IMG/VR virus record: IMGVR_UViG_3300030329_005293
Span: 1-52,683 of that record
Reading direction: 5' to 3' (one strand)
DNA length: 52,683 nt
Source: a virus
Each line of letters starts with the position of its first letter. Position 1 is the stretch's first letter. The notes under the pieces are model-generated. The model had not been told where the DNA came from. It saw only the letters and a program-made list of their open reading frames with translations, and ran no database searches. Shown here piece by piece: positions 24,341 to 46,550 of this stretch. Made by a program: the position numbers and the translations under genes.

Positions 24341-26044
24341 TCATGCTCCCGGGAATTTAGCTAAACTTGGCATCCCAGCCATTTCTGGTGGTAATTCTGG
24401 TGGTAATTCTGGAGCCATTTCTGGCTCCTCTTCCATTTCTTCCTTAACAATCGATGGCCGAACGTCAAATAAATCAATAAGCTCTCTTGTGATTTCTCGC
24501 CAATTGATTTCCTCCACCGTGGGGGCTGATGCAAGCTGGCCCAACAGAGCTACCAGTTGTTCTCGTCGGACATGTTTATCTTCCATCAATGGCGAGAATG
24601 GCAGCACTCTGAAGTGGTGCATGGATTGAATATCTTGTGCAACCACAGAAGCATCAGCATCAACTTGTGTAGCAGCGACAATGTATGGCAGATCGATACC
24701 GCTGGCTCCATCATTTTCTACAGCCCAGCGAAGTACCTCAGAGGCTGTATCGAAGCCTCGTTTGACAAACTTGGTGAGCAATCTGAGCCTTACATTCATC
24801 CGGCCTTGGACGGAACTTTGAATCATATTTGCTTCAGCAGCCGTTCTAATATTTCGGACCTCGCCACGCTGGAAATCGCCCAAACCAGCTATGTTTTTGA
24901 TGCCATATTCTGCTGCTTCCAGATGCCGATTAAAGTCGAAAGTTGTGGGCATTTCTGGTGTGACAAAAATCATATCTCCAACCAGAGCTTGGCCATCGGT
25001 TTCGATAGGTATAGGTTCCCAAGTTGTGCTGTTCATCCAGCGCATGGCATCATCCTCATTGGGGAACATCGCCTTGTCGTAGAACATTCTTCTTGGGAGT
25101 CTGCGAACAATCTCTCTGCGAGCTGAAACTAACTCATTGATGTCCTGCTGGAGCGGAGCGATGAGAGAGGTGTCTGGGATGCCTCGGATACGGCCAATAC
25201 CGGAATGGAATGTAAGTTGGTCGTAAGGATTGCCATACGGTATTTCTGCTTCCATGAGAATCTGTTTTGTACCCATGTGTATATGATACAACTTCCCTCG
25301 TCGGAAGTCCCAATATTCATGGACAGTCACGTATTCTTTTAGCCCCTCTCGTCTTCTTTCACGGCTCTCATCATATCCCATATGCTCATCGATAAGTTCT
25401 CTGGGATACGTATCTGCACGGACATGTTTATTTGCGGAGGGCTCGTAGTATTCATTTTCTATACGAGCGCGGACTTCTGACTCATGCAGAATGAATCTTT
25501 CCGAGATCCAGGAGCAATCTTTGACTCGTCGAGCGGTGGGGTCGAAGAAGACTTCCCATGGCATCTTTAGCCGCCATATAACCCTGCCTGCTTCTTTCGA
25601 CCACGTGATTTTGCGGATGGCACCTTTGCCAAAAAGCATGGAGTGAAGGGTGGCTTCTCTGGTGGTCTCATCGTAGTCATCCTTCTCAGCCATCCAGTTG
25701 AGAATGGCTGCTATTCTTCGGCCTGAGAAGGTATCGTCTTGATGTCTGTTTGGAATATCATACGACATTTGCCGATGGTCGAGAGCTTCCACTTGGGGGA
25801 GGTCCATTGCCAGTGCAGATGCCATCGAGTCTAAGATCGGGAAGACTTCATTTTGTTGGGCATTGTATCCAGACAGTTCTGGGAATGGTGAGTTTCCATC
25901 TCCCTCCCAAAAGTTGCCCCGCCAGTAGGCTAGGTTCCGAGCATCTTCAGCAGCCACTTGTTTTCTGTAGCTTTCCTCGGAGAATTCGATCCTTTTGAAT
26001 ATCTTGGCTCGTTCTTTGAGTTCAGCTTGTTTCTCATCAGACAT
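24341..26044 (-). CDS. Portal protein
   Basis: 567 aa from ATG 26044 (GGGG 5 bases upstream), 8-bp overlap with the terminase gene. Portal features visible: an N-terminal helix, a W-R-G-N-F-W region, G-K-G-A-I-R-K-I (core strand), W-E-V-F-F-D-P-T-A-R (wing), Y-W-D-F-R-R-G-K followed by the long stem helix S-L-I-A-P-L-Q-Q-D-I-N-E-L, and a C-terminal crown-like helical and Pro/Glu-rich tail. The dodecameric ring is the DNA gate to which terminase docks. The terminase-portal order supports the call. Confidence 0.85.
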   Translation of the reverse strand: MSDEKQAELKERAKIFKRIEFSEESYRKQVAAEDARNLAYWRGNFWEGDGNSPFPELSGYNAQQNEVFPILDSMASALAMDLPQVEALDHRQMSYDIPNRHQDDTFSGRRIAAILNWMAEKDDYDETTREATLHSMLFGKGAIRKITWSKEAGRVIWRLKMPWEVFFDPTARRVKDCSWISERFILHESEVRARIENEYYEPSANKHVRADTYPRELIDEHMGYDESRERRREGLKEYVTVHEYWDFRRGKLYHIHMGTKQILMEAEIPYGNPYDQLTFHSGIGRIRGIPDTSLIAPLQQDINELVSARREIVRRLPRRMFYDKAMFPNEDDAMRWMNSTTWEPIPIETDGQALVGDMIFVTPEMPTTFDFNRHLEAAEYGIKNIAGLGDFQRGEVRNIRTAAEANMIQSSVQGRMNVRLRLLTKFVKRGFDTASEVLRWAVENDGASGIDLPYIVAATQVDADASVVAQDIQSMHHFRVLPFSPLMEDKHVRREQLVALLGQLASAPTVEEINWREITRELIDLFDVRPSIVKEEMEEEPEMAPELPPELPPEMAGMPSLAKFPGA

Positions 26045-27668
26045 GCTTGCCCCAGGGAGTATTGTTTTCTTCCACCATACCACGATTTTCTAAACGCGCA
26101 ATTAACCGCCGTACAGCGTCTTCGGCCACCCTTGATTCTTTGTGGCGAACAGAGTGTCGCCAATAGGCACCTCTGTGCTGCATATATGCCCATGCAGCGA
26201 TGCCCCATGCTGCCGCTAAATCATAGTGGCCTCCAAAGACATCCCTATCTTTTTTGGACCCCCATTGACCGCGATAGTTCATCAGTTGTCGCAAGGATCT
26301 TGGGCTACGTATCAGGATGGATTCTTCATCGATCATCTGCTGGAGATACCCTTCGGCCTCTTTTTTTGTTTTGACGCTTGACCACCATCCTGCGATGCGT
26401 TGCCGAGACCTGCCATATCGTGATGGTTTTCTTCTAAAGACCTTGCGATATGAGATATTGGGATTGTCAACCAGATGACTAAGAACGGATTCACCGATAC
26501 CGTTGGCTTCGACATATATTATTGCATCATTGTATTGTCGGCCCCACTCAGCTAGATTAGTGGCCATCTGATATGCAGACATATGGCCCAGATATTCAGC
26601 CACCTGTTCGCATGATGATATATCGAGTATGACCACACCATAGTTGTCTCGTTCAGCCCATGAGCCAGCAGGGTCACATGCAATGATATACTTGTGTTCT
26701 GGGTCAGGTTCTTGATATTTCACCCATGGGTCCGGTTCCACGGCAAGCCCTGTCCCACCATCGAGGGCTTCCAGCATCATTCGCAGGGTTTCCTGATTGT
26801 AGACCGCATCCCCTGTCATTGCCCAACACTCGAAGTCATTGATTGGGTATTCTTGTTTGAATTTCTGGATGTTTCGAGCGCATTTTGGCAGTCCAGAGAC
26901 TTGCATCCAGTATGCCTGTTCAGGGCTCAGACTAGGATAGGTATCCCAGTATTCTCGGACCTGTCTTGATGGTATCCATTTTGGTGCTGGCTTGATTTTG
27001 TATTCTTCTACAGCCGTCCACGGTAGGAATACCTTCAGCCATTTTGAGTCCACTTTCTCGGAGTCCAAACAGAGCATGTGGAGTTGGTCTCCATGATGCT
27101 TTGGGGTACTCTCGGCCATAAAGAAGCCACCATTTTCTGGCACGGCATTAAGTATCGATGCCCAAACCTCATCACCACCAGTTGAAGCCCAGCTTGATAT
27201 TTCTGTACCCAGAGCTACCTGCACGGTTTCTCCACGCAGTGGTTCATCATCTTGACATGATGCCACATCCAATTTTGAGTCTATTTGAGGGAACTGTAAA
27301 CTTTTGAGAACCCGTCCTTGGCGATGGGGCCGAAGTCCCTTCGGCGTTGACTTATAGAATCGATTGGCTATCTCAGCTAGGGATTTTGCTGTCTGCTTCT
27401 TGTGGCCGATGATGGCCACCTGACATCCAGAGCGAAAAGCTGCATGTTGATATGCAATGCCCGTGAAGAATGTTGAGGAGCCCTCCTGACGGGGCTTGAC
27501 ATGGACTATCCATTTTCCAAGTGCGTATGCTTGCATCACCGCAGCAGCCAACAACTTCTGGTGGTCCCAGAGTTTGAATGGTTGGATGCCATGGCTCTTT
27601 GTTCTGATCGATAACAGAGGCAGAAAATAATTGGGGTCCCAGAATTCTTGTGCGCTTGGATCAATCAT
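26037..27668 (-). CDS. terL: Terminase large subunit
   Basis: 543 aa. Packaging ATPase plus nuclease. Walker A is the phage-type K58-P-R-Q-E-G-S-S-T66. The Walker B position reads V-Q-V-A-L-G-T-E156: the catalytic Glu is present but the usual Asp is Thr. E-S-T186-188 fits the coupling motif. The RuvC-like nuclease shows C-D332-P-A-G, V-E388-A-N-G and H-Y-D483. The start overlaps the previous stop as ATGA, coupling it to the likely small subunit. It cuts concatemers and pumps DNA through the portal encoded next. Confidence 0.92.
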   Translation of the reverse strand: MIDPSAQEFWDPNYFLPLLSIRTKSHGIQPFKLWDHQKLLAAAVMQAYALGKWIVHVKPRQEGSSTFFTGIAYQHAAFRSGCQVAIIGHKKQTAKSLAEIANRFYKSTPKGLRPHRQGRVLKSLQFPQIDSKLDVASCQDDEPLRGETVQVALGTEISSWASTGGDEVWASILNAVPENGGFFMAESTPKHHGDQLHMLCLDSEKVDSKWLKVFLPWTAVEEYKIKPAPKWIPSRQVREYWDTYPSLSPEQAYWMQVSGLPKCARNIQKFKQEYPINDFECWAMTGDAVYNQETLRMMLEALDGGTGLAVEPDPWVKYQEPDPEHKYIIACDPAGSWAERDNYGVVILDISSCEQVAEYLGHMSAYQMATNLAEWGRQYNDAIIYVEANGIGESVLSHLVDNPNISYRKVFRRKPSRYGRSRQRIAGWWSSVKTKKEAEGYLQQMIDEESILIRSPRSLRQLMNYRGQWGSKKDRDVFGGHYDLAAAWGIAAWAYMQHRGAYWRHSVRHKESRVAEDAVRRLIARLENRGMVEENNTPWGKHV

Positions 27669-30958: not shown

Positions 30959-31025
30959 GATAACTCCATGTTTAGTGTGGCCTGAATAGTGTATCTCTTA
31001 GTTTATAAGAATGTCAAGGAGAAAG

Positions 31026-31466
31026 ATGAAATTAGTTCTAGATATACCCCTAAAGGGACGAGCTTGCCCCCGACCCAGACGATCAGGGAAGGGGGGTGTC
31101 TTTATGCCCAAGGCATATAGAGACTGGAAAGAAGAGGCCATACAATTGCTTCAAAACGCCACTGATATTAGGGGCATCGAGCTCTGCGAGATTGAGATGA
31201 CTTTTTTGTTCAAAAAACCCAAGCGCTTGAAGAAAACCACTGGTCGTGTTCCACGTGGAACCGCTCCAGATACAGACAATTTGGCGAAGGGAATTCTTGA
31301 CAGCTTGGAGCAATCAGGAATTTTGATCAACGATAAATTTGTGTACAAAATAACAGCCTCAAAATGGTGGAAAAGTTCCTCGGAGTCGGAATCTATACAA
31401 ATAATTATAAGCACAGAAAAAGAAAAGTCTTGCACTTCTAATAACAATCTCTTACTATTCTCTTAG
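31026..31466 (+). CDS. rusA: RusA-type Holliday junction resolvase
   Basis: 146 aa from ATG 31026, with AAGGAG 4 bases upstream; ATG 31011 is less likely. RusA signatures are present: basic N-terminus P-R-P-R, then P-D82-T-D84-N-L-A-K-G-I-L-D92-S-L and I-N-D103-K, matching the catalytic acidic residues that cut four-way junctions. The Lys/Ser-rich C-terminal tail is longer than needed. It probably resolves recombination and replication intermediates before packaging, with the neighbouring Sak4-like protein. Confidence 0.85.
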   Translation: MKLVLDIPLKGRACPRPRRSGKGGVFMPKAYRDWKEEAIQLLQNATDIRGIELCEIEMTFLFKKPKRLKKTTGRVPRGTAPDTDNLAKGILDSLEQSGILINDKFVYKITASKWWKSSSESESIQIIISTEKEKSCTSNNNLLLFS

Positions 31467-31502
31467 TGTTCTCTTACTTTTTAGAGGCACAAGGAGTTTA
31501 AC

Positions 31503-31853
31503 ATGAGTACGACAGGACGAGTTAGCGTCAACCACGGAAGGTTACGCGCATGGATAGCTGAGAACTACGGTCAGAATTGGAGAGGTAAGCCCACCACCTC
31601 TGCTTTGGATCATTTTCGCATTGACCTCAACAAAGCTGGCTCATCGGCGGTGCCGAAGTTCCGCAAAATTAAAACCACGACCAGTATTTTTTACTGGCTT
31701 GACACTTCTCGAAGTCCAACCACACCAAAGGATGCGACGAAGAGAGCTATCCATACCCTGACTGGCGGTGCCGTGAATCGGGATGACTGGACAAAAATCA
31801 TCCATATCATCGAGCGATACGACCTAGCTGGCTGGACCCCCCCAAAAATATAG
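31503..31853 (+). CDS. Small basic protein upstream of primase, unknown
   Basis: 116 aa; AAGGAG 6 bases before ATG 31503. Basic and helical, with N-H-G-R-L-R-A-W-I-A-E-N-Y-G and S-I-F-Y-W-L-D-T. The W-I-A-E-N-Y-G and later helices could be nucleic-acid binding, but no motif is conclusive. It lies directly before the primase in the replication operon, 9 bp apart, so a replication accessory role is plausible. Confidence 0.5.
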   Translation: MSTTGRVSVNHGRLRAWIAENYGQNWRGKPTTSALDHFRIDLNKAGSSAVPKFRKIKTTTSIFYWLDTSRSPTTPKDATKRAIHTLTGGAVNRDDWTKIIHIIERYDLAGWTPPKI

Positions 31854-31862
31854 GAGTTGATA

Positions 31863-32723
31863 ATGTTTGATGTACACACTTGGAACATACCCCATATGTC
31901 GATGCACCCTTGCCCACGCGAGGGGTGGAAGGTGACCAACACTATTCCACAATGGAGTCGCAACACAGACTTTCCCATGAGACATTTTATCAATGTACAC
32001 GAGGTTGTAGAGCAGAAAGAGGATGTCATGCTCTGGACGCCAAACCAGTGGAAAGAGGGGAACAAGCCCACCAACGAGAATGTTCATGAGACACACGCAT
32101 TTGTTTGTGACTTTGACAAGATATCGGTGATGGATGCCAAGGTTATTTTTGCCAAGCTGAAAGGTTTTGCCTACATTGCTCATGCGAGCTACAGCCACAA
32201 ACCTTTACTGCCAAGTTTTCGGGTTATCTTACCAGTATCTCGGCCCATTAAGCCTGAAGAGTTCAAGCGAGTCTGGTGGGAGGTACAAGCCATTTTTCCA
32301 AAACTCGACAAGTCGTGCAAGGACCCCAGAAGATTGTGGTATCTGCCATCGTGCCATTCCGAGCGGAAGCGGTTCTACTGGAGCTCAGCAAAGAATGGAG
32401 ACATTTTTGTTGATGTCGATGCGTTGTTGCAACAGTCATTGAAGCGTAAGCCTCCTAGGAAGAAAGCACCTCCACCAAAGTTCTCCAACACCGAGGATGC
32501 TCTGAATTATGGTATCAGCAAAGATAAGTTTGTGAGAATTCAGATAGCCGAACAACTAGGCGCAAAGATAATGGAGCGAGGGGTGGCAGTGGGCGTGAAA
32601 TGCCCAAATTGTCATCGCAACAGTGTATGGTTCACACTACAGCCAACGGATGGTGGTTGGGCTCGGTGCAACCACCTTAATAAGTGTGGATGGTTCGGAC
32701 AACTAACAGAATTCATGGAGTAG
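31863..32723 (+). CDS. Primase (archaeo-eukaryotic type) with zinc ribbon
   Basis: 286 aa from ATG 31863 (AGGAG 6 bases upstream). An acidic pair F-V-C-D83-F-D85 and a downstream H107-A-S-Y-S-H-K with F-R-V-I-L-P-V-S-R-P match the catalytic pattern of AEP/RepB-like prim-pol domains. A basic linker (K-R-K-P-P-R-K-K) leads to a C-terminal zinc ribbon C-P-N-C-H...C-N-H...C-G-W. It would make primers for phage replication, next to the VapE-like helicase. The palm assignment is from motifs, not alignment. Confidence 0.7.
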   Translation: MFDVHTWNIPHMSMHPCPREGWKVTNTIPQWSRNTDFPMRHFINVHEVVEQKEDVMLWTPNQWKEGNKPTNENVHETHAFVCDFDKISVMDAKVIFAKLKGFAYIAHASYSHKPLLPSFRVILPVSRPIKPEEFKRVWWEVQAIFPKLDKSCKDPRRLWYLPSCHSERKRFYWSSAKNGDIFVDVDALLQQSLKRKPPRKKAPPPKFSNTEDALNYGISKDKFVRIQIAEQLGAKIMERGVAVGVKCPNCHRNSVWFTLQPTDGGWARCNHLNKCGWFGQLTEFME

Positions 32724-32725
32724 AA

Positions 32726-34108
32726 ATGAGCAAGAAACCACAAAACACACAAAAACCCAATATCAGAGTGGTCAAGCGAGATGACCTGGTGGTGCCTGAG
32801 AAGCTGATTGACCCTGCATTGAGACCCGACAAGGATGTCTTGGCCCAGCTAACCTTGAATCCGGTCAAGTTCACGGCTGATGGTGAACGCAAGGGAGGCA
32901 ACCCCAAGCGCATCAAACTCAACCTTAGACGTATCATCATGAGTGATCCACGCATCAAAGACAAATACAGATTCAATCTCTTTTCCGGGATGCTCATGGA
33001 AGGGGACAAACCAATGCCAAAGTATGGGTACACGGACTTACAGTTGTGGGTATCCGAGGTGTATGGGCTGGAGTATGGGCTGGAGACCATCATCGCATTG
33101 GTGGACTGGTACGCTGAGAAGCATCGCAGTTACAATCCAATCCGAGAATACTTGGAAGCATTGGATTGGGACCCGAAGACAGATAAACCCAATCTGCATA
33201 TGTTGTTCCCAAAATATTTTGGTGCGAAAGATACAAAATTGAACCGTGTTTTAGGTATGCGTTGGATATTGGGTATGGTAGCCAGAGGGTTATTGCCCGA
33301 TGATGACACTGAGGGGATCAAGGTTGATCACATCACAATTTTTTGTGGCAGACAAAACCAGTACAAGGGTCGAGCATTAGAGGCATTGGCATCGGCTGAG
33401 TTCTTCTCTGATTCCAAGCTGGAGATTGACAAGAAGGACTTGTATGAGAGTATTCATTCTGGCATTTGGTTGTGGGAGATCCCTGAACTACACAATCTGT
33501 TTGCCAAGGGTGACAATACGACCAAAGCCGTGCTGAGTTCTAAGAGAGATAGATGGAGGCCCCCTCATGCTCGTGGAGGAGTGCAGCGCGTTGCTCCCCG
33601 GCGGGGGTTGATTGTGGGCACCAGCAATGACACTGAGATATTGACTGATCCTACTGGGGCTCGACGGTACTGGCCCGTCACGGTAGAAAGGAAATGTGAT
33701 GTAGAAGCAATCAAACGCGATAGAGACAAACTTTTTGCCGAAGCGGTCTACTTGCTAAAGGTGAAAAAAGAGCAAACTTGGCTGACTGAAACAGAGGAGG
33801 GATGGTTGAAAGATTCACAGATTGAGTACACGCTGAGTGATTCATGGGAAGATGGAGTATCGAAAGCATTGGAGCGTTTTCCTCATGGTATCAGTTTGGG
33901 GGATATTCTGAAAGGCGAGCCGAAAAATGATATTAACAGCCGACCCCAGTGGGGAGTAGGTCTGCCCATCGAGAAGCATCATTCTGGATATATCAGAAGG
34001 GTAGCTGGTATTTGTCAGAAGTTGGGAGCTTCCAAGTTTAGGAAGACAATCGACGGTCGGAAAGTCACTTTGTGGAAGTTGCCAGCGGTGGGGCAACCAG
34101 AAGAGTAG
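32726..34108 (+). CDS. VapE-family superfamily-3-like helicase
   Basis: 460 aa from ATG 32726 (GGAG 5 bases upstream). The C-terminal domain carries the virulence-associated-E signature G-T-S-N-D-T-E-I-L-T-D-P-T-G-A-R-R-Y-W-P-V (residues 298-318). The Walker B-like strand is I-W-L-W-E-I-P-E-L (247-255). The P-loop position reads F-C-G-R-Q-N-Q-Y-K-G-R (206-216) and lacks the usual G-K-(S/T). It is the likely replicative helicase acting with the upstream primase. Whether the odd P-loop still binds ATP is unknown. Confidence 0.8.
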   Translation: MSKKPQNTQKPNIRVVKRDDLVVPEKLIDPALRPDKDVLAQLTLNPVKFTADGERKGGNPKRIKLNLRRIIMSDPRIKDKYRFNLFSGMLMEGDKPMPKYGYTDLQLWVSEVYGLEYGLETIIALVDWYAEKHRSYNPIREYLEALDWDPKTDKPNLHMLFPKYFGAKDTKLNRVLGMRWILGMVARGLLPDDDTEGIKVDHITIFCGRQNQYKGRALEALASAEFFSDSKLEIDKKDLYESIHSGIWLWEIPELHNLFAKGDNTTKAVLSSKRDRWRPPHARGGVQRVAPRRGLIVGTSNDTEILTDPTGARRYWPVTVERKCDVEAIKRDRDKLFAEAVYLLKVKKEQTWLTETEEGWLKDSQIEYTLSDSWEDGVSKALERFPHGISLGDILKGEPKNDINSRPQWGVGLPIEKHHSGYIRRVAGICQKLGASKFRKTIDGRKVTLWKLPAVGQPEE

Positions 34109-34731: not shown

Positions 34732-35124
34732 ATGGAAGAATTTTATTCTTACTTCTTTGACTACGGTGCTATGGGTCTTTTTGCAGCTTGGTTGGCGTAT
34801 AACAATTTCCAACAAAAAAAGGCAGAGGATTCTAGAGTAACAAAATTCCAAGATCAACTAGACAAAATACGATTGGAGTCAAAAGAGGAGGTCGAAAAAA
34901 TACGAGCAAGATATGATGGTGTGTTGGATGAGTACCGGGAGGAACGCACCATGGTTCGGGAGCGCTTGGGAGCCAATATCAAAGAGGTTTCTCGTCAAGT
35001 GGAGGGTATGGAGTCAACCATGCGAGGCATTGAGACAGTCTCATCCGAGATTCGGACGATAATGAGAGAATATCAGGAGCATCGCAAGTTGGAGGCGATG
35101 ATAAAAGCCAAAGGAGATTCTTAG
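34732..35124 (+). CDS. Membrane-anchored coiled-coil protein, BhlA/holin-like
   Basis: 130 aa; GGAG 6 bases before ATG 34732. One N-terminal membrane helix (G-A-M-G-L-F-A-A-W-L-A-Y, residues 12-23) is followed by about 100 residues of charged heptad sequence predicted to be a coiled coil. The layout recalls BhlA/UviB-type holin-like or membrane-tether proteins, but it lies far from the lysis genes and is longer. It could be an inner-membrane exclusion or signalling protein. It ends convergently, overlapping the W...WP repeat gene by 4 bp. Confidence 0.55.
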   Translation: MEEFYSYFFDYGAMGLFAAWLAYNNFQQKKAEDSRVTKFQDQLDKIRLESKEEVEKIRARYDGVLDEYREERTMVRERLGANIKEVSRQVEGMESTMRGIETVSSEIRTIMREYQEHRKLEAMIKAKGDS

Positions 35125-35528
35125 CGTTTGTACTTGTGTTTATATCTTCGATAAGAACTGTTTTCCCAAGGCTTCCTCTTCCGTGGAGGCCATCTTTTTT
35201 TATGGGTCCTGGCCCATCCTCTGGCTGTGTTTTGTGCTGCGCTGGGTGAGCACCCAAAGTCGAGCCCAATATCTATCCAGGACTCTCCTGAGTGGTATGC
35301 AGCGTAGAACATGGCTCCTCTGGAGAGGATGAGTACTGGCCATTTGAGTTTTTCTCTAATGGCGTATCGTTTTGCTGCACTTCGGGCTCCTTCGATGGAT
35401 TTATATTCGAGTCGTGTAGCAATAATTTGCCATGACACTCGGCATCTTTGTCGCATCCAGTACGCTGCAGCTCCGCGAGTCTGCCAAGTTGTCTTATTTG
35501 GTCTCGGTCTGTGTTGATCGTTGTCCAA
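35121..35528 (-). CDS. W...WP repeat protein 1 (two units), DNA-binding candidate
   Basis: About 135 aa if it starts at TTG 35528 (weak GGA upstream); ATG 35456 would give a shorter form that loses the lead-in. Two copies of a roughly 50-residue unit: S-W33-Q-I-I-A...A-R-S-A-A-K-R-Y-A...K-W63-P and S-W84-I-D-I-G...A-A-Q-N-T-A-R-G-W-A...R-W113-P-P. The unit has the look of a helix-turn-helix (W-x-x-I-A, short turn, A-x-x-x-A-x-x-Y-A). The basic C-terminus (K-R-K-P, Y-R-R-Y-K-H-K-Y-K-R) fits nucleic-acid binding. Three plus-strand paralogues follow within 2.5 kb. The family is not one I can name. Confidence 0.6.
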   Translation of the reverse strand: MDNDQHRPRPNKTTWQTRGAAAYWMRQRCRVSWQIIATRLEYKSIEGARSAAKRYAIREKLKWPVLILSRGAMFYAAYHSGESWIDIGLDFGCSPSAAQNTARGWARTHKKRWPPRKRKPWENSSYRRYKHKYKR

Positions 35529-35619
35529 AATTTGTCCATTTATTCAAACTCGTTGTAATTTGTATGTATTTAGCAGAAAAAGCCAAAAAAAACACACAAA
35601 TTGCATCAAATAGGTTAAT

Positions 35620-35632
35620 CTTATTTAATAAG
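35620..35632. promoter_or_regulatory. Palindrome over a ribosome-site region
   Basis: CTTATT-T-AATAAG is a perfect 13-bp dyad directly before GAGGAGGG and ATG 35643. It also contains a TTTAAT box 17 bp after TTGCAT (35601). It may be an operator for the plus-strand operon or a small RNA hairpin limiting ribosome access. Confidence 0.35.
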
Positions 35633-35642
35633 AGGAGGGTAT

Positions 35643-36083
35643 ATGCAGCCCATCAGAACAACAAACAGAATGTTGGAGACAACCTTGGTTGTTTCGAGAC
35701 ATACCGAGCTTCCAAAGCTGTTGGTAGAGCGAGAAATATTGGCTCCAAGGCGTTATCACAAGATAGATTTCCCCACCCCTAACTGGATGCGAGTAATTCA
35801 CACTGCTCCAGAGTATGTCCGGGGCAGAAACTTGATAACAACGCAGAATGAGCTCCCCTTATTCATGGCAGTGTTGGCCCGGTCGGTAACTGTCATTCCT
35901 TTGTCGATGACTTGGGATGATCGCAGGGCTCGGTTCATCCCCTTGGATCGGTTGAGAGAGATAGCTGGAGACCCGATTTACTTCTCGGTCTTGCAGCATC
36001 CAGAGAGTGTAGACAAAAAGCGAATCTTCGCGGAACTGCTGGATGAAAAAGTGCCATGTTGCTGGAGAGAAGATGTCACGTAG
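35643..36083 (+). CDS. Unknown protein, first gene of the repeat-protein operon
   Basis: 146 aa; a very strong GAGGAGGG site precedes ATG 35643. Mixed alpha/beta, with P-I-R-T-T-N-R-M-L-E-T-T, an R-R-A-R-F-I-P-L-D-R-L-R-E-I segment, and C-C near the end. No family recognised. Its last 11 bp overlap the next gene, so it leads a coupled operon of repeat-protein, repressor and membrane-peptide genes. Confidence 0.6.
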   Translation: MQPIRTTNRMLETTLVVSRHTELPKLLVEREILAPRRYHKIDFPTPNWMRVIHTAPEYVRGRNLITTQNELPLFMAVLARSVTVIPLSMTWDDRRARFIPLDRLREIAGDPIYFSVLQHPESVDKKRIFAELLDEKVPCCWREDVT

Positions 36084-36579
36084 GCGTTTAGATGGCAAAA
36101 GAATTTACCGAACTAGAAAAAACACAAGGGCCAGTTGGGATGCGATTGGTAAAAAATACAAATGTGGCAGCAAGTCAGCGTTACGTGCCGCCAAGAGATA
36201 TGCAATAGAGAACAAACACCCGTGGCCGATTCACCGTCTTTCTGCCGCTGAGATGGCATACGAAGATCGTGTGCAGGGTTATTCGTGGGCTGAGATAGCC
36301 AAGGGGTTAAACATGCAAAACCCTGATTCAGCTCGACGAGCCGCCTATCGATATGCAGCCCTTAATGATTTAAATTGGCCGCCTGGAGAGGATGGAAAGC
36401 CGATACCAAAAGAGAAGCCGGAGACATTGTACAGCATGGCTTTATCGGTGTACCAGTATCGATTGGCCACCCAAAAAACTTGGGGAGAAATAGGAAAACA
36501 CTTTGGATTGAAGCATACGTATGCTTACACAATGGTAAGGCGCTATGTTCGGGAGAACAATTTGCCATGGCCCATATGA
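36073..36579 (+). CDS. W...WP repeat protein 2 (three units), DNA-binding candidate
   Basis: 168 aa from ATG 36073 (GGAG 5 bases upstream), overlapping the previous gene by 11 bp. Three units: S-W22-D-A-I-G...A-A-K-R-Y-A...P-W-P52; S-W72-A-E-I-A...A-A-Y-R-Y-A...N-W-P-P104; T-W137-G-E-I-G...V-R-R-Y-V...L-P-W-P167. Each is led by an A-x-Y-like helix (M-A-Y-E-D-R at 61). The first two W positions are 50 residues apart and the next pair is 65 apart because of a Pro/Lys linker. A tandem helix-turn-helix array reading extended DNA is the likeliest role. Ends in ATGA overlap with an XRE repressor. Confidence 0.65.
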   Translation: MSRRRLDGKRIYRTRKNTRASWDAIGKKYKCGSKSALRAAKRYAIENKHPWPIHRLSAAEMAYEDRVQGYSWAEIAKGLNMQNPDSARRAAYRYAALNDLNWPPGEDGKPIPKEKPETLYSMALSVYQYRLATQKTWGEIGKHFGLKHTYAYTMVRRYVRENNLPWPI

Positions 36580-36833
36580 GTGAATTTGGAATGTGGTTGC
36601 ACACAGAGACCAAGCGCAGTGGTTTGATCAAGCGCGACTTGGCCTTTCATTCTGGGGTTACCCCTCAGATGATAAGTTCGTATGTACGTGGCAAGGCATC
36701 CCCCACGATGTTGACTTTCCGTTGTATTTGTGAAGCCTTGGCATATTTCCAAGGTCGTTTGGTAGGTTTAAGTAAAAGTGAGATAGAATTGTTATCAGCC
36801 GAGTTGATGGTGGCTGGATTGAGGCGAATATGA
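36576..36833 (+). CDS. XRE/Cro-CI family regulator
   Basis: 85 aa from ATG 36576 (ATGA overlap with the previous stop). A lambda-repressor-type helix-turn-helix is clear: G-L-I-K-R-D-L-A-F-H-S-G-V-T-P-Q-M-I-S-S-Y-V-R-G, then A-S-P-T-M-L-T-F-R-C-I-C-E-A-L at about residues 16-55. There is no C-terminal cleavage domain, so it is Cro-sized. It is likely to control nearby promoters such as the dyads at 34696 or 35620. Coupled on both sides by ATGA overlaps. Confidence 0.8.
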   Translation: MSEFGMWLHTETKRSGLIKRDLAFHSGVTPQMISSYVRGKASPTMLTFRCICEALAYFQGRLVGLSKSEIELLSAELMVAGLRRI

Positions 36834-36925
36834 ATGACATTGAATTTTGGGAAAACTGGGGCTTAGTGATTGGATTGTGTCTATTTTTTAGCTCATTCTA
36901 TATTTGGTCGTGGGTACTGCCATGA
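36830..36925 (+). CDS. 31-aa single-pass membrane peptide
   Basis: ATG 36830 overlaps the repressor stop (ATGA) and its own stop overlaps the next ATG (ATGA). After M-N-D-I-E-F-W-E-N-W comes a hydrophobic helix G-L-V-I-G-L-C-L-F-F-S-S-F-Y-I-W to near the end. Coupling on both sides and a clean membrane helix support a real micropeptide of the inner membrane. Function unknown. Confidence 0.6.
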   Translation: MNDIEFWENWGLVIGLCLFFSSFYIWSWVLP

Positions 36926-37209
36926 GGTGTATTTGTGGCCAGTCCCTCAGCAGCAGCTTTGCAGAACGGTTGGGAAAGCCGACTTTGCAAGAGGGTCATC
37001 AAAAAATATGGGTATTGGGAGCCGTTGCGAGTCGAACAACCCCCCCTCGATGGTTGTGCCATATCTATTCAACAGGTCGTTGTATCCATTCCTTAATGGT
37101 GACCAATGGCAAACTGTGTGAGACCCCGGACCAAGCCGAGACCGCAGCCTTGGCTTTGGCCAAACAGATGATAAGACCTATAAAACCTCAACAACTAACC
37201 TTATGGTGA
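36922..37209 (+). CDS. Small protein with N-terminal Cys pair, unknown
   Basis: 95 aa from ATG 36922 (ATGA overlap with the membrane-peptide stop). It begins M-R-C-I-C-G and has further Cys at 45, 54 and 66, so a small metal site is possible. The C-terminal third is an Ala-rich helix (A-E-T-A-A-L-A-L-A-K-Q-M-I). Overlaps the next repeat-protein gene by TGATG. No family recognised. Confidence 0.55.
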   Translation: MRCICGQSLSSSFAERLGKPTLQEGHQKIWVLGAVASRTTPPRWLCHIYSTGRCIHSLMVTNGKLCETPDQAETAALALAKQMIRPIKPQQLTLW

Positions 37210-37538
37210 TGAGAATGAAAGATGCAGACCGAGCTTACCATCTTCGTCGGATTGGTAGATTAAAGTGGAGAGAGATAGCTGAAAAGACCCAGTATTCTTC
37301 AAAGGAGGGAGCGAACATGGCTGCTGCCGCCTTTGCCAAGAGGCACAATTTAGAGTGGCCTTTACCGTTACCATTGAGCAATGGTGAGCTGGCGTATTGT
37401 TTTGCTCGTGAGTCAAAAGAGTGGGATGACATTGCAGAGATGCTGCACATTCCCAGTGTCAAGCGTTGTCGCAATGCGGCTAGACATTATGCTTCTAGAC
37501 ACAAACTCCCATGGCCTCCAGCTTGGATTAAAGAATGA
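37209..37538 (+). CDS. W...WP repeat protein 3 (two units), DNA-binding candidate
   Basis: 109 aa from ATG 37209 (TGATG overlap with the previous stop; ATG 37203 and 37215 are alternatives). Two units: K-W20-R-E-I-A-E-K-T-Q-Y-S...A-A-A-A-F-A...L-E-W-P51 and E-W72-D-D-I-A-E-M-L-H-I-P...A-A-R-H-Y-A...L-P-W-P103. Each is preceded by a helix with A-Y (A-D-R-A-Y at 6, E-L-A-Y at 60). Spacing W to W is 52. Same family as the genes at 35121, 36073 and 37535, and coupled to the last by ATGA overlap. Confidence 0.65.
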   Translation: MRMKDADRAYHLRRIGRLKWREIAEKTQYSSKEGANMAAAAFAKRHNLEWPLPLPLSNGELAYCFARESKEWDDIAEMLHIPSVKRCRNAARHYASRHKLPWPPAWIKE

Positions 37539-37864
37539 AGAAGAAACAGCGCATCGAAGCCCAAGAGAAAGCCTATAAAATGCGAAAGCGAACCCGCATG
37601 TTTTGGTCTCAGATTGCGACCCACACTGGATATGGTTGTGCCAGTAGCTGCCATGCGGGAGCGAGAGCTTATGCCCTTAGAAACAAACAGCCGTGGCCAT
37701 TACCTGGAGCCTTAACAAAAGCAGAAATGGCTTATGAAGACTTGAAAGATGGTGATTCTTTTGAGGAGATACGTAAAACCTTGGGATTAGCCACCAAAGA
37801 AAGGGCTTTAAAGTACGCATGGTCATGGGCCATGAGCAACAATCTACCATGGCCTCCTAGGTGA
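37535..37864 (+). CDS. W...WP repeat protein 4 (two units), DNA-binding candidate
   Basis: 109 aa, ATG 37535 in ATGA overlap. Units: F-W24-S-Q-I-A-T-H-T-G-Y...A-G-A-R-A-Y-A...Q-P-W-P55 and S-F76-E-E-I-R-K-T-L-G-L-A...L-K-Y-A-W-S-W-A...L-P-W-P107. In the second unit Phe replaces the first Trp. Lead helices contain E-K-A-Y and E-M-A-Y-E-D, the latter nearly identical to protein 2, so unit duplication and shuffling is likely. Same length as protein 3. Basic N-terminus (K-K-K-Q-R). Confidence 0.65.
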   Translation: MKKKQRIEAQEKAYKMRKRTRMFWSQIATHTGYGCASSCHAGARAYALRNKQPWPLPGALTKAEMAYEDLKDGDSFEEIRKTLGLATKERALKYAWSWAMSNNLPWPPR

Positions 37865-39075: not shown

Positions 39076-39229
39076 ATCTAACTCCAGCTTGTGTACAAAC
39101 TGGCATCCAAGGCTTATGTGCAAAAATATGCGGAGCTTGAATACCAGCCTAGTACAACATAGCCAGAACACATCACCCAGCAAGCCAATTTCTGTCCGAA
39201 AATCCCGCTGGCTACAACAAATCGTGCTG

Positions 39230-39288
39230 GTTTCGTAATGGGTGGCGGGTTGTGAAACTCGTTTCCAACCCGCCACCCATTACGAAAC
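39230..39288. repeat. Long near-perfect hairpin (27-bp stem)
   Basis: 39230-39251 is the exact reverse complement of 39267-39288 (22 bp). Pairing continues inward with G39252-C39266, one bulged T, then GAAA/TTTC, leaving the loop CTCG. There is no following T-tract on either strand, so it is not a standard terminator. It could be an origin hairpin, a protein-binding cruciform, or a structured RNA leader of the exonuclease gene, which starts 155 bp away. Confidence 0.85.
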
Positions 39289-39517
39289 TACCACAGTTTG
39301 TTTCGCTTTGCAGACTTCAAAAATGATAATAGCTGCCAAAGACTACCAGAACGGCTGCACTATAGAATGTTCAAATATGTTGTAATTTCTGTGTCGAGTA
39401 ATTGGTCAAAGTGATAATTTCCCAAATTCTGGAAAATTCTTTTAGGGGTCTAAATGTTAATTACCCCACCCATCGGGGGGGGAGCTCAGGGCCGGATTTC
39501 GAGCTCGAGATTCAGCA

Positions 39518-39622
39518 GGAGGGGGCTATCCTTCTATTATGGCGGTGCTGTCGGCATCCTAGGAGACTCGATGGGGTAGGGGGATTTCCTCAGAATGGGA
39601 GGGGGGGATTCCTCTATTATCC
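39518..39622. repeat. G-rich direct repeats (iteron-like)
   Basis: Three related 25-bp segments begin at 39518, 39575 and 39598, with pattern GG(A/T)(A/G)GGGG then ATTCCTC or CTTC and ATTAT. Copies 1 and 3 are most alike. Several runs of five or more G occur, so G-quadruplex formation is also possible. Spacing between copies is 57 and 23 bp. Confidence 0.5.
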
Positions 39623-39954
39623 CGTGAGACTGGGAACAATCGGACCAAATCCCCATCAAATACCGAACACTGTTAGGTAAAATCCTGACCCTTAGAGGCT
39701 GATCAATTGAGAAGAATGGCCTTTGGTGGTCTCCTCAATTGGTGTGCTTCCATCTCCTTGGCTTGGTAGTGATGGCATTGGTGCCACGATAAGAGTGCAA
39801 AAAATAGTTACATATTATTACAAACCTTGAACTATTAGCCTGTCGCCGATGCTTTCCATGGCTATCAGATAGCCGTATACACTGGGCATTACTTGGCCAT
39901 ATAGAGAGATAGAGATAGGGGAATGATTCACCCTACAACCACGGACAAAACACA

Positions 39955-43271: not shown

Positions 43272-44213
43272 CTATTGTGTTGTGGTTGTGGTTGTGGTTA
43301 TTTCTTGGAGGGCTTGGAGCGAGGCTTTGATGAACTCCGCCGCGACTTGGGGAACAATTGCATTGCCGCAACCCCGCAGGATAGCCACTCTTCCACCGGA
43401 TAGCCCATGAGCCAGAGGGTAAAGGCTGGATTGAGTCGGTATCCGGCGGCGCTTGCCATCTCTGCACTCATGCCATCGGGTATCGGCCCAAGGTGCTGTG
43501 GCCCCTGCTGGCGTTGGTTGTGGGCGGGGTCGCCCACCGAGGGGTCGGCGGAATTGGCTCTGGGGCAGTGTGGTGTGGGCCATCCGGCCAGTTTGCTCTG
43601 CACCCCCAGAGGCATCCCTGCTCCGTTTCCGTTGCCATGCTTGGCTTTGAGTCGAGCCAGTCGGCGTAGGTGATTCTCCACCTTGCTGCCGTCGTTGATC
43701 ACTCCCGCATCTGGTGTAGCCCACCCACCAAAGACGCTGGCGGATCTGCGGTGCGCCGACGCTCGCAGCGCACATATCTGCCGCTGCTCCGATATATCCC
43801 ATCGTTTCCATTTCATCGAGTACTCCGGCGAGCCAAGACCTTCCAGATTTGCTTGCAACCTGCTCTCCAAACACCGTTGCAGGTTTACACTGCTCAATGA
43901 GTCGAGCCCAGACGGGCCAGAGGTGTCGCTCATCGTCGGTGCCTCTCCGTTTGCCTGCGTTGGAGAATGGCTGGCAGGGGCATGAACCTGTCCATAGTGG
44001 GGTGTCTGGGCTGACTCCTGCGAGTTGCAGGGCGAGAGGCCATCCGCCGATACCGGCGAAGAAGTGGCATTGGGTGTAGCCTCTGAGGTCTGAGGCGGGA
44101 ACATCGGTAATTGAACGTACATCTATGTGTCCTTTTGGTATGTGGTTTTTGTTCATCAGTTCTCGCAGCCATGCGGCTGCTTTGGGGTCTTTTTCATTGT
44201 AGTAGTGTGTCAT
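43272..44213 (-). CDS. DNA cytosine-5 methyltransferase
   Basis: 313 aa. Cytosine-5 methylase motifs: F52-A-G-I-G-G (I, SAM binding), G-S-C-P-C80-Q-P-F-S (IV, catalytic Cys), G-E117-Q-V (VI, normally E-N-V), Q-I-R-Q-R160 (VIII) and G-N-A-I-V-P-Q-V (X, 283-290). The target domain between VIII and X is short and Arg/Gln/Gly-rich. A second open gene is completely nested in another frame, which may constrain that region. A GGGA site precedes ATG 44213. It presumably protects phage DNA against restriction. Confidence 0.88.
   Translation of the reverse strand: MTHYYNEKDPKAAAWLRELMNKNHIPKGHIDVRSITDVPASDLRGYTQCHFFAGIGGWPLALQLAGVSPDTPLWTGSCPCQPFSNAGKRRGTDDERHLWPVWARLIEQCKPATVFGEQVASKSGRSWLAGVLDEMETMGYIGAAADMCAASVGAPQIRQRLWWVGYTRCGSDQRRQQGGESPTPTGSTQSQAWQRKRSRDASGGAEQTGRMAHTTLPQSQFRRPLGGRPRPQPTPAGATAPWADTRWHECRDGKRRRIPTQSSLYPLAHGLSGGRVAILRGCGNAIVPQVAAEFIKASLQALQEITTTTTTTQ
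43298..44122 (-). CDS. Nested methylase-associated protein in alternative frame
   Basis: 274 aa entirely inside the cytosine methylase gene, one base displaced. It has its own site, AAGGA 7 bases before ATG 44122. The frame contains G-W-A-T-P-D-A and G-W-P-T-P motifs and ends with L-N-P-A-F-T-L-W-L-M-G-Y-P-V-E-E-W, a motif known from a separate group of phage proteins annotated as DNA methylase-like. Thus both frames read as recognisable phage protein families. The N-terminus M-Y-V-Q-L-P-M-F-P is also typical of that group. Function unknown, perhaps an accessory to modification. Confidence 0.6.
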   Translation of the reverse strand: MYVQLPMFPPQTSEATPNATSSPVSADGLSPCNSQESAQTPHYGQVHAPASHSPTQANGEAPTMSDTSGPSGLDSLSSVNLQRCLESRLQANLEGLGSPEYSMKWKRWDISEQRQICALRASAHRRSASVFGGWATPDAGVINDGSKVENHLRRLARLKAKHGNGNGAGMPLGVQSKLAGWPTPHCPRANSADPSVGDPAHNQRQQGPQHLGPIPDGMSAEMASAAGYRLNPAFTLWLMGYPVEEWLSCGVAAMQLFPKSRRSSSKPRSKPSKK

Positions 44214-44216
44214 GAT

Positions 44217-44648
44217 CTATCCCAACAATTCTTGGATGATTTTGATGGCCTCTGGGCCGTGGCCCCCAACATTCCATCGTCGGATTGTGTCGAGTGGCTG
44301 GCCATCCTCACCCCACGAGGGGCCGTTCTTCCAATTATAGATGGTGCAGATGGCACCATCGATATCGATTGTCCAGTGGGCATCGATTTTGTGTGAGTAC
44401 TCGCAAGGGTCTGGCTCACCCAGAACGGCGATCAACTGGTCATAGGTGGCCGTCAGGCTCCCTTGGCCATGCGTACCGTCGATGCTGTGGCCAGCATTTA
44501 TGCTCACAATTCGCCAGTCAAAATTGGCGAAGTCAACGGCGTTTTCGATGACAATTGCCTCTGCATATGTGCTATCTGTGGTTGTGGCGTGGGTATGCCA
44601 TCCACCCTCAAAAGGGGCCGTTTCTCGGTATTGTAGTAGAATTTTCAT
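44217..44648 (-). CDS. Small acidic phage protein, unknown
   Basis: 143 aa; AAGGA 7 bases before ATG 44648. Contains T-A-T-Y-D-Q-L-I-A-V-L-G-E-P, W-T-I-D-I-D-G-A-I-C-T-I-Y-N-W-K and a final W-N-V-G-G-H-G-P-E-A-I-K, a layout I associate with a widespread phage hypothetical family. No catalytic residues assigned. It sits between the Mom-like and methylase genes in the modification cassette. Confidence 0.6.
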   Translation of the reverse strand: MKILLQYRETAPFEGGWHTHATTTDSTYAEAIVIENAVDFANFDWRIVSINAGHSIDGTHGQGSLTATYDQLIAVLGEPDPCEYSHKIDAHWTIDIDGAICTIYNWKNGPSWGEDGQPLDTIRRWNVGGHGPEAIKIIQELLG

Positions 44649-44662
44649 GTGTGTGTCCTTGG

Positions 44663-45229
44663 TTATAGGTGTATGATGAATTTGTGCTTGGCAAATGGGC
44701 CAATGCGGTTGTATAGGCGGTCCATTTCGGAAGCCCGTTTTTTCTTACCATCGCAGTAGGCAGATACCAGTTTGCCGGTATCATCTACCCACATGTAGGA
44801 TGCCTTGGTTTTCCCGCAGTACTCCCAGTTGGTGGCTCTGTAGATAGCACCGGTGTGCTGCTGATAATCGTCAGCAAATGTCATGAGCAGTTTGATGTGT
44901 GGGTAGTTTTTCTTGATGTGTCGGATGCTCCAGCCAATCAGATAGGATGCCCCATTGGTGGGCACGTCAGGATGGATGGCCAGACGGGAGAGGGTGAGAA
45001 CCTCTCGTGGCCCCATGTTGTGTTTCCTGACTGCCAGTAGTGGTGCGGGCATCCATAGAGATGCCCCCATAATGTCGTCGTTCCAGAGAGAGCCTGCCCG
45101 ATAGAGAGCAGTTCTCACCACTGATGTGTTGCTCGTGCCCCGAGCATAGTGGTGCTGCCTGATAAATGCGGCAGCATCGCGGTGGGGAACGGTGCAAACC
45201 GTCCAGTCGCGTTTTCTGAATTTGTCCAT
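44663..45229 (-). CDS. Mom-like DNA-modifying acyltransferase
   Basis: 188 aa; GGAG 5 bases before ATG 45229. It resembles the phage Mom family, GNAT-fold proteins that add a carbamoylmethyl group to adenine: L-T-L-S-R-L-A-I (78-85), G-W-S-I-R, and F-A-D-D-Y...H-T-G-A-I-Y-R-A-T-N-W (118-135). First gene of the minus-strand cassette with a cytosine methylase, so hypermodification of phage DNA against restriction is likely. A generic GNAT acetyltransferase is the alternative. Confidence 0.7.
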   Translation of the reverse strand: MDKFRKRDWTVCTVPHRDAAAFIRQHHYARGTSNTSVVRTALYRAGSLWNDDIMGASLWMPAPLLAVRKHNMGPREVLTLSRLAIHPDVPTNGASYLIGWSIRHIKKNYPHIKLLMTFADDYQQHTGAIYRATNWEYCGKTKASYMWVDDTGKLVSAYCDGKKKRASEMDRLYNRIGPFAKHKFIIHL

Positions 45230-45531
45230 GTGTACTCCATTTTTGGTGTGGGCTCATCCAATAACGCACCCCTCTATATATGCCAAGTTTTTTTCGCAAA
45301 ATAATTGTCGCTATGTTTGCGCTGCTATCGGCATCATATGCCAATCCGATGGGGTTTGCTCAAAAAATAATCGCAAAACGAGCTTGCAACATGGCAGCTC
45401 CGGGAGTATGCTGTTGGGGTAGGCCACTCTGGCTCCGGCTGGCTCCGGCTGGCTCCGGCTGGCTCCGGCTGGTTCGGCTCCGGCGGCTCCGGCGGCTCTG
45501 CACCACACACACACATATATATAGGACACAC
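45230..45531. other. Divergent intergenic region with GC repeats
   Basis: 302 bp between the minus-strand cassette and the plus-strand operon, so it should hold both promoters; TATATA steps at about 45274 and 45516 are candidates. It contains the 10-bp repeats at 45431-45470 and a segment (45320-45355) resembling 39537-39576. A frame open from 45280 begins like a signal peptide (F-F-R-K-I-I-V-A-M-F-A-L-L-S-A-S-Y-A), but it has no ribosome site and runs through the repeats. Confidence 0.5.
45431..45470. repeat. 10-bp GC-rich tandem repeat, right flank of modification cassette
   Basis: Four exact tandem copies of GGCTCCGGCT, then degenerate copies to about 45500. Same unit and orientation as 42807-42836. 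Located just before the ribosome site of the plus-strand operon. Confidence 0.9.
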
Positions 45532-45996
45532 ATGACTAAAACTAAAACACACTATCTGTGCTTGAATTGCATCAGTTGGTGGACAAAACGAACTGGCTGT
45601 AAATGCAGTCCAGTTCTCCCCAAGAAACCCAAGCCCCCCCGTGGCCCCCGATACGAGTGGGAGATCCAAGTCTCCACTGGTTTTGGTTCGATTTATTACT
45701 ATGACATGTCGCAGCCTGATTGTGCTGAACGCGCAATCTCCGATCTTGTTGATGCTTTGGAACAGCATCAACAAGATACCGAAAACGCAGACCACCTCCC
45801 GTGGTTTGAGATTGTTCGTTTTGATCTGCGTCCAAAGGATTACGGTCAGGATCGAGATGAGTTTGATTACCCATTCGAGTTGCCAGCTAAGCGTATGCAA
45901 AAACACGCTCAAAAACTAAATGACTGGCGATTTGCCAATTCCTCGGCGTTTGACAAACTCCACGACAAATTCTACCCCGAAGGAGAAGGGCAATGA
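45532..45996 (+). CDS. Small zinc-knuckle protein, unknown
   Basis: 154 aa from ATG 45532 (AGGA 5 bases upstream). N-terminal Cys set C10-x-x-C13...C22-x-C24 suggests a metal knuckle, followed by a Pro/Lys linker and an acidic alpha/beta domain (S-D-L-V-D-A-L-E-Q-H-Q-Q-D). Its stop overlaps the next methylase start as ATGA, so the two are coupled. No family recognised. Confidence 0.55.
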   Translation: MTKTKTHYLCLNCISWWTKRTGCKCSPVLPKKPKPPRGPRYEWEIQVSTGFGSIYYYDMSQPDCAERAISDLVDALEQHQQDTENADHLPWFEIVRFDLRPKDYGQDRDEFDYPFELPAKRMQKHAQKLNDWRFANSSAFDKLHDKFYPEGEGQ

Positions 45997-46550
45997 TCAT
46001 CACTAGAAGTTGGGCCATGTCCAACAAAGAAACATTTCGGATCAAGCCCATCAACGAGGTGATCCAACGCTACCTCAATGGTGGCGTGTGGGTTGACCCG
46101 TTTGTTCGGGCTTCGGTTTTCAAGGACCAAATGACCTTCACCAATGACCTGAACCCTGACTTTGAAGCGACTCACCATATGGATGCGCTGGAGTTCTTGA
46201 AAGCTCTCAGTGACTCCTCTGTAGATGGGGTTCTATTTGACCCTCCCTACAGCCCCAGACAGATTACTGAGTGCTACCAAGGGGTTGGTCGGAAGACAGT
46301 TTTCGCTGACACCAACGCCAGTTTTTGGTCCAATCTCAAAAAAGAGATCAGTCGGATTCTAAAACCCGGTGGCGTGTGCATCACATGCTGCTGGAACAGC
46401 GGGGGCATTGGAAAAAAATATCAATTTGAAATTGAAGAGGTTCTGATTGTACCCCACGGATCGTGGAAACACGACACCATCTGCACCGTAGACAGAAAAC
46501 AACCCACACTACCCACACTATTTAACTACAAGGACACTACCAATGAGTAA
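45993..46550 (+). CDS. DNA methyltransferase with DPPY motif
   Basis: 185 aa, ATGA overlap. Phage amino-methylase signature: V-D-P-F-V-R-A at 34-40 (SAM region), N-D-L-N-P-D (51-56), G-V-L-F-D83-P-P-Y86-S-P-R (catalytic), and I-S-R-I-L-K-P-G-G-V-C-I-T-C-C-W. D-P-P-Y indicates N6-adenine or N4-cytosine methylation. It is the third DNA methylase of the genome and differs from the N-P-P-Y enzyme at 37907. No recognisable target-recognition domain, so specificity is unknown. Confidence 0.8.
   Translation: MIITRSWAMSNKETFRIKPINEVIQRYLNGGVWVDPFVRASVFKDQMTFTNDLNPDFEATHHMDALEFLKALSDSSVDGVLFDPPYSPRQITECYQGVGRKTVFADTNASFWSNLKKEISRILKPGGVCITCCWNSGGIGKKYQFEIEEVLIVPHGSWKHDTICTVDRKQPTLPTLFNYKDTTNE

Follow-up and report, generated by a model that had tools for sequence, protein, structure and literature searches.

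Within 2.7 kb, a tailed phage genome carries four small genes (A-D) whose products are built from repeats of a single unit, which raises the question of what kind of proteins these are and what they recognize. The DNA analyzed here (the window) comprises the complete IMG/VR virus record IMGVR_UViG_3300030329_005293 (52,683 bases) and is assigned to a tailed phage by its gene content. In addition to the genes listed below, it encodes a Sak4-like protein, Dam-type and other methylases, a Mom-like protein and an endolysin. A DNA modification gene cluster lies at 43272-46550 (methyltransferases at 43272-44213 and 45993-46550, the Mom-like protein at 44663-45229). No integrase was recognized among the window proteins scanned, no Rfam families or tRNAs were found in the window, and PADLOC returned nothing on it. 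The main comparison is with L005 (IMGVR_UViG_3300025112_005397), a viral contig from the same phage group with 74% DNA identity over 9 kb. The genes of the window that matter here are the following:

26037-27668 (-), terminase large subunit
within 31011-34108 (+), RusA-like resolvase, primase piece and VapE-like helicase
35121..35528 (-), gene A, 135 aa, two helix-turn-helix (HTH) units and a basic C-terminal tail, pI 10.9
35643..36083 (+), 146-aa gene, first in the operon divergent from A, 77% in L005
36073..36579 (+), gene B, 168 aa, three HTH units, pI 10.1
36567..36833 (+), XRE-type HTH protein whose translation is coupled to that of B, starting at ATG 36567 or ATG 36576
36830..36925 (+), 31-aa membrane peptide, ATGA-coupled
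37215..37538 (+), gene C, about 107 aa, two HTH units, other possible starts at 37203 and 37209
37535..37864 (+), gene D, 109 aa, two HTH units, ATGA overlap with C

The operon divergent from A begins with the 146-aa gene, which has no match in Pfam or PHROG, and goes on to include B, C, D and a Dam-type methylase gene. The ATGA couplings of the XRE gene and the 31-aa peptide, described in the original prediction, are borne out on the sequence, and so is that of D. The 31-aa peptide stays between B and C in both phages while neighboring genes vary. For C, the start at 37215 is favored because of the L005 relative. For gene A, no ATG lies in frame upstream of the units, and of the usual start codons only TTG 35528 is available. 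A conserved ATG (35539) lies just upstream in another frame (MDKFW...), and the bases there form no standard slippery site in that frame from which a frameshift start of A could be derived.

All four ORFs are present where they had been placed from the sequence alone, and they carry 2 + 3 + 2 + 2 = nine units of ~48 residues each. When a profile of the nine units was run against the six-frame translation of the whole record, exactly nine copies were returned (E 3e-20 to 5e-24 each) and no tenth unit was found in the 52.7 kb, the next six-frame match having an E-value of 0.7. That the units form one family far beyond chance is confirmed by profiles from which a protein's own units were excluded, which still find A (7e-22), B (5e-31), C (9e-23) and D (6e-25), beyond which the first unrelated frame scores E 0.2-1. 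Aligned directly to A, C and D, B gives E-values of 1e-10 to 2e-19. The predicted spacing of ~50 residues between units holds generally, the exception being B2 to B3, which are 64 apart. As located by the unit profile, the units are:

35331..35477 (-), A1, type 1
35181..35321 (-), A2, type 2
36091..36234 (+), B1, type 1
36244..36384 (+), B2, type 2, its L005 ortholog above the Pfam HTH_23 gathering threshold
36436..36576 (+), B3, an extra unit resembling type 1, sigma region 4-like in structure
37221..37367 (+), C1, type 1
37380..37520 (+), C2, type 2
37559..37705 (+), D1, type 1
37718..37861 (+), D2, type 2

In the nine-unit alignment Y6, I18, W45 and P46 are invariant (numbered by the first row), and the conserved aromatics at unit positions 6, 16, 38 and 46 are spaced by 10, 22 and 8. 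Two types of unit can be separated: A1, B1, C1, D1 and B3 (type 1) have an extra residue before the central W and end in WP[VIL], and A2, B2, C2 and D2 (type 2) are one residue shorter and end in WPP. Since the two types alternate, an origin by duplication of a two-unit gene is indicated; the pattern points to a two-unit ancestor (type 1 + type 2) of A-D, with a type-1-like unit added later in B. The proteins are all basic, with pI values of 9.7-10.9 and net charges from +7 to +23, and consist of HTH units only, no other domain having been found with Pfam or PHROG.

The suggestion that the units are tandem HTH modules is supported by two AlphaFold models, by structural alignments and by a Pfam match in an orthologous unit. 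The models of B (mean pLDDT 87.9) and A (mean pLDDT 76.0) have three helices per unit, and in every unit of both proteins these form a trihelical bundle (helices 8-18/22-28/33-46 and equivalents) in which helices 2 and 3 make the HTH. The pTM values of 0.53 and 0.55 mean that the placing of the units relative to one another is not fixed in the two models. In structural alignment of B, nearly all top matches are DNA-binding HTH domains, the best being sigma region 4 bound to the -35 element (1.3 Å over 44 residues), followed by domains of the LuxR/GerE type (1.8-2.0 Å over 48 residues) and the Cdc5 Myb pair. A matches RcsB, sigma and TraR-type structures (up to 3.5 Å). ParB/Noc is also among the matches of A and B, and the LuxR/GerE/RcsB matches overall lie at 1.8-3.5 Å over 48-50 residues. 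VIA Z scores of 6-7 fall in a range that is common for helical bundles, so weight is placed on the uniformity of the match list together with the sequence evidence. Foldseek alone gave no significant PDB match and only poor superpositions in BFVD, as expected from the uncertain placing of units in the strings. Sequence searches of solved structures gave no match with the full-length profile and weak matches with the unit profile, Myb first (1h8a_C, E 0.023). Unit 2 of the L005 B protein reaches 30.3 bits against Pfam HTH_23 (cut-off 24.6); the window's own units are all under Pfam cut-offs and are tied to HTH_23 via the unit profile. Taken together, we put the probability that A-D are tandem HTH DNA-binding proteins at roughly 85%, the HTH fold being well supported and DNA binding being inferred. 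Of the two targets originally proposed, DNA or RNA, the modeled fold favors DNA, and the RNA option is left unsupported.

The units are encoded on three other viral contigs, L005, L006 and L007. In L005 the four genes are all present and ordered as in the window, L006 has one A-type two-unit protein (46% identical to A), and L007, a different phage, has one 234-aa protein with four units. In a tree, the A proteins of both phages group with that of L006 (95/93) and the two B proteins group together (100/98), with weak placements for C and D. Because the four genes are shared with L005 in order, the set is older than the split between the window and L005. The expansion within 2.7 kb, which had been read as recent, is not: the four genes were already there before the split, and synonymous sites have reached or nearly reached saturation between the two phages (dS from about 1 to beyond measure). 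Identity to the L005 orthologs is 75% for A, 45% for B, 51% for C and 42% for D, with 87% for the neighboring helicase. Recognition-helix residues are identical between orthologs at 16 of 33 positions (48%) versus 41 of 146 other exposed positions (28%; Fisher p = 0.037), a weak test in that random position sets reach the same result in 13% of draws. L005 lacks the XRE gene and a 101-aa gene. The XRE gene, thought at first to be part of the system, is therefore no fixed partner of it. At L005:7010-7996 a PAPS-reductase-domain gene stands between C and D, and it is missing at the equivalent place of the window.

Beyond these contigs, 50,697 annotated phage records gave no match for the window's B and D or for the L006 and L007 proteins (E limits 1e-2 to 1), and weak partial matches only for L005 B. 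PLSDB gave none for B. Pattern scans of GTDB genomes, which need a conserved short peptide and may miss distant copies, found no relative, and a scan by the helicase yielded no more than a 99% copy of L005 ending before gene A. The family is thus, provisionally, rare. It also remains without a name, as first reported, since Pfam, PHROG, NCBIfam and PADLOC hold no entry that describes A-D well, and no account of it was found in the literature on phage proteins made of tandem HTHs. A-D would then be a new and apparently rare family of a familiar DNA-binding kind, the HTH module type itself being well known.

Known systems share parts of this design. Like HTH_23 and other homeodomain-like HTHs (PF13384; HTH_28, Sigma70_r4_2, Myb_DNA-bind_6), A-D have a three-helix unit, with an SW-x-E-I-A second helix and an S-x-x-x-A start of the recognition helix; unlike them, they have their own aromatic Y/W pattern, an LPWP end and tandem copies that form the whole protein. 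The DNA-binding domains of sigma-70 region 4 and LuxR/GerE (NarL/RcsB) have the same single-unit fold, but they are single C-terminal domains of larger proteins and are only 4-20% identical to the A-D units. A sigma-70 factor was rejected, as no region 2 match was present in Pfam or PHROG and A-D are HTH units only. Two or three consecutive trihelical HTHs in one chain are also found in Myb R2R3/Cdc5, paired, AraC and Tc3-type bipartite domains; compared with the Myb-type systems, sequence similarity is low and the orientation of the pair is not fixed in the A-D models. A Myb R2R3 repeat as such was rejected, its W-x18-19-W-x18-19-W spacing being absent from the units. TnsD/TniQ proteins of Tn7-like transposons carry a C-terminal array of multiple HTH domains for target selection (PMC10293859), but A-D have no TniQ core, zinc finger or transposon, and their HTH strings are free-standing.

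If A-D bind DNA, a candidate site lies next to gene A. A and the 146-aa gene are divergent and 114 bp apart, and an inverted repeat sits in the gap:

35551..35608, candidate operator, inverted repeat of CGTTGTAATTTGTATGT (35551-35567, +) and TGATGCAATTTGTGTGT (35592-35608, -)
39378..39394 (+), third half-site copy TGTTGTAATTTCTGTGT, in noncoding 39.2-39.9 kb, suggestive only

A 55-bp noncoding block that starts at 35551 is 93% identical to L005 versus a mean of 72%, in the top 1.9% of 55-bp windows compared across the 9.5-kb alignment of window and L005. The arms of the repeat are 41 bp apart and agree, at best, at 14/17 positions (window) and 15/17 positions (L005); equally good arms arose in 2 of 200 shuffles (window) and 0 of 200 (L005), two tests that are not independent as the phages are homologous. 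The half-site, GTTGT-N5-GTATGT, is made up of two G/T-rich blocks that resemble each other and are separated by one helical turn, a layout that would fit a pair of tandem HTHs. Copies of one motif are present both at 35.6 kb and at 39.2-39.6 kb, regions that the original prediction had singled out, the first copy lying in the conserved inverted repeat. The copy at 39378 matches at 14 of 17 positions, with three mismatches, where 0.11 such copies are expected by chance. The surroundings of the L006 and L007 genes yielded no copy of the motif, and a scan of viral contigs for the palindromic-operator pattern returned only L005 and an unrelated match inside a coding gene of another contig (L025).

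Two further features of the downstream noncoding DNA deserve mention. About 650 bp (39300-39950) are without convincing genes and contain one candidate half-site copy, and a near-perfect hairpin at 39205-39310, noncoding and upstream of an exonuclease-like gene, has arms CAACCCGCCACCCATTACGAAAC that do not occur a second time in the window. As RNA, the hairpin has a folding energy of -61.9 kcal/mol (z -9.8).

As to which protein reads the repeat, an XRE/CI-type repressor switch was considered and rejected: the XRE gene is internal to the operon, and L005 retains the inverted repeat without having that gene, so the XRE protein cannot be the general reader of the repeat. That A acts at the 35.55-35.61 kb repeat is a tentative pairing. 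The block at 35551 could also serve as a promoter alone, or be read by a host factor.

Other roles for A-D have to be weighed against transcription regulation. Like small nucleoid proteins, they might bind DNA to coat, compact or mark it, or to protect sites against host nucleases or the phage's own methylases. Their strong basicity and several paralogs would suit this, as would the Dam-type methylase in the operon and the further methylase and Mom-like genes in the phage. However, the orthologs stay distinct from phage to phage and have position-specific residues, and a specific site is suggested by the strong conservation of the repeat next to gene A, so we consider a coating role unlikely. 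It is a little less probable still that the units target proteins rather than DNA and, as appropriators or anti-sigma-like proteins, dock on the RNA polymerase of host or phage. Sigma region 4 is the structure closest to one unit (1.3 Å over 44 residues), and there is a weak match to the positive-control-sigma-like PRK06930 (0.027); against this reading, domains of the LuxR/GerE and Myb types do just as well (Z values tied to within 1) and the strong basicity fits nucleic acid better.

RNA binding, either as first suggested or under the 'RNase E' label of PHROG 645, appears very improbable. The phrog_645 profile matches weakly in 7 of 10 members (up to E 1.5e-5), but it also matches in 14 of 14 control genomes, and the fold matches are DNA-binding HTHs. 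Membership of PHROG 645 itself was rejected, with about 30-70 of 196 profile positions matched and the nuclease domain absent. We give even less credence to the idea that A-D are remnants or accessories of mobile elements, that is, DNA-recognition arms of a transposase or homing endonuclease that have lost the catalytic part. Weak matches to HTH_23/HTH_Tnp_4 and the IS66 accessory TnpA, and phage endonucleases among the BFVD structure matches, point that way; the absence of a catalytic domain and the four intact ORFs, kept in order under constraint in a diverged relative, argue against it.

We return to transcription regulation, which we think is probably, though by no means certainly, the role of A-D in the phage. 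In the mechanism that we propose, each protein would be two or three consecutive homeodomain/sigma-region-4-like HTH units and nothing more, every unit placing its third helix into the DNA major groove, so that a protein of 12-20 kDa could read a longer site than a single HTH. The family may have arisen by whole-gene duplication of a two-unit protein, with B gaining one unit. The two HTHs of A would bind one half-site and two A molecules would fill the inverted repeat, from where A could control its own promoter and that of the divergent operon. B, C and D, which change faster, may act on other sites that also change faster.

If A does bind the conserved repeat, it would represent a compact type of regulator, 100-230 aa of HTH units only, that has no name in current phage annotation libraries. 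A broader reading, which we regard as speculative and rather unlikely, is a phage-specific modular form of DNA reading. Independent strings of two to four HTH units, having been duplicated together, would each read a long site by adding up the specificities of their units, alongside a deeply conserved divergent operator; evolution might then recombine such units into new specificities. If A does bind the repeat, the locus would also offer a small system for asking how HTH strings add up to specificity, and why A has been kept (75%) while B-D diverge (42-51%).
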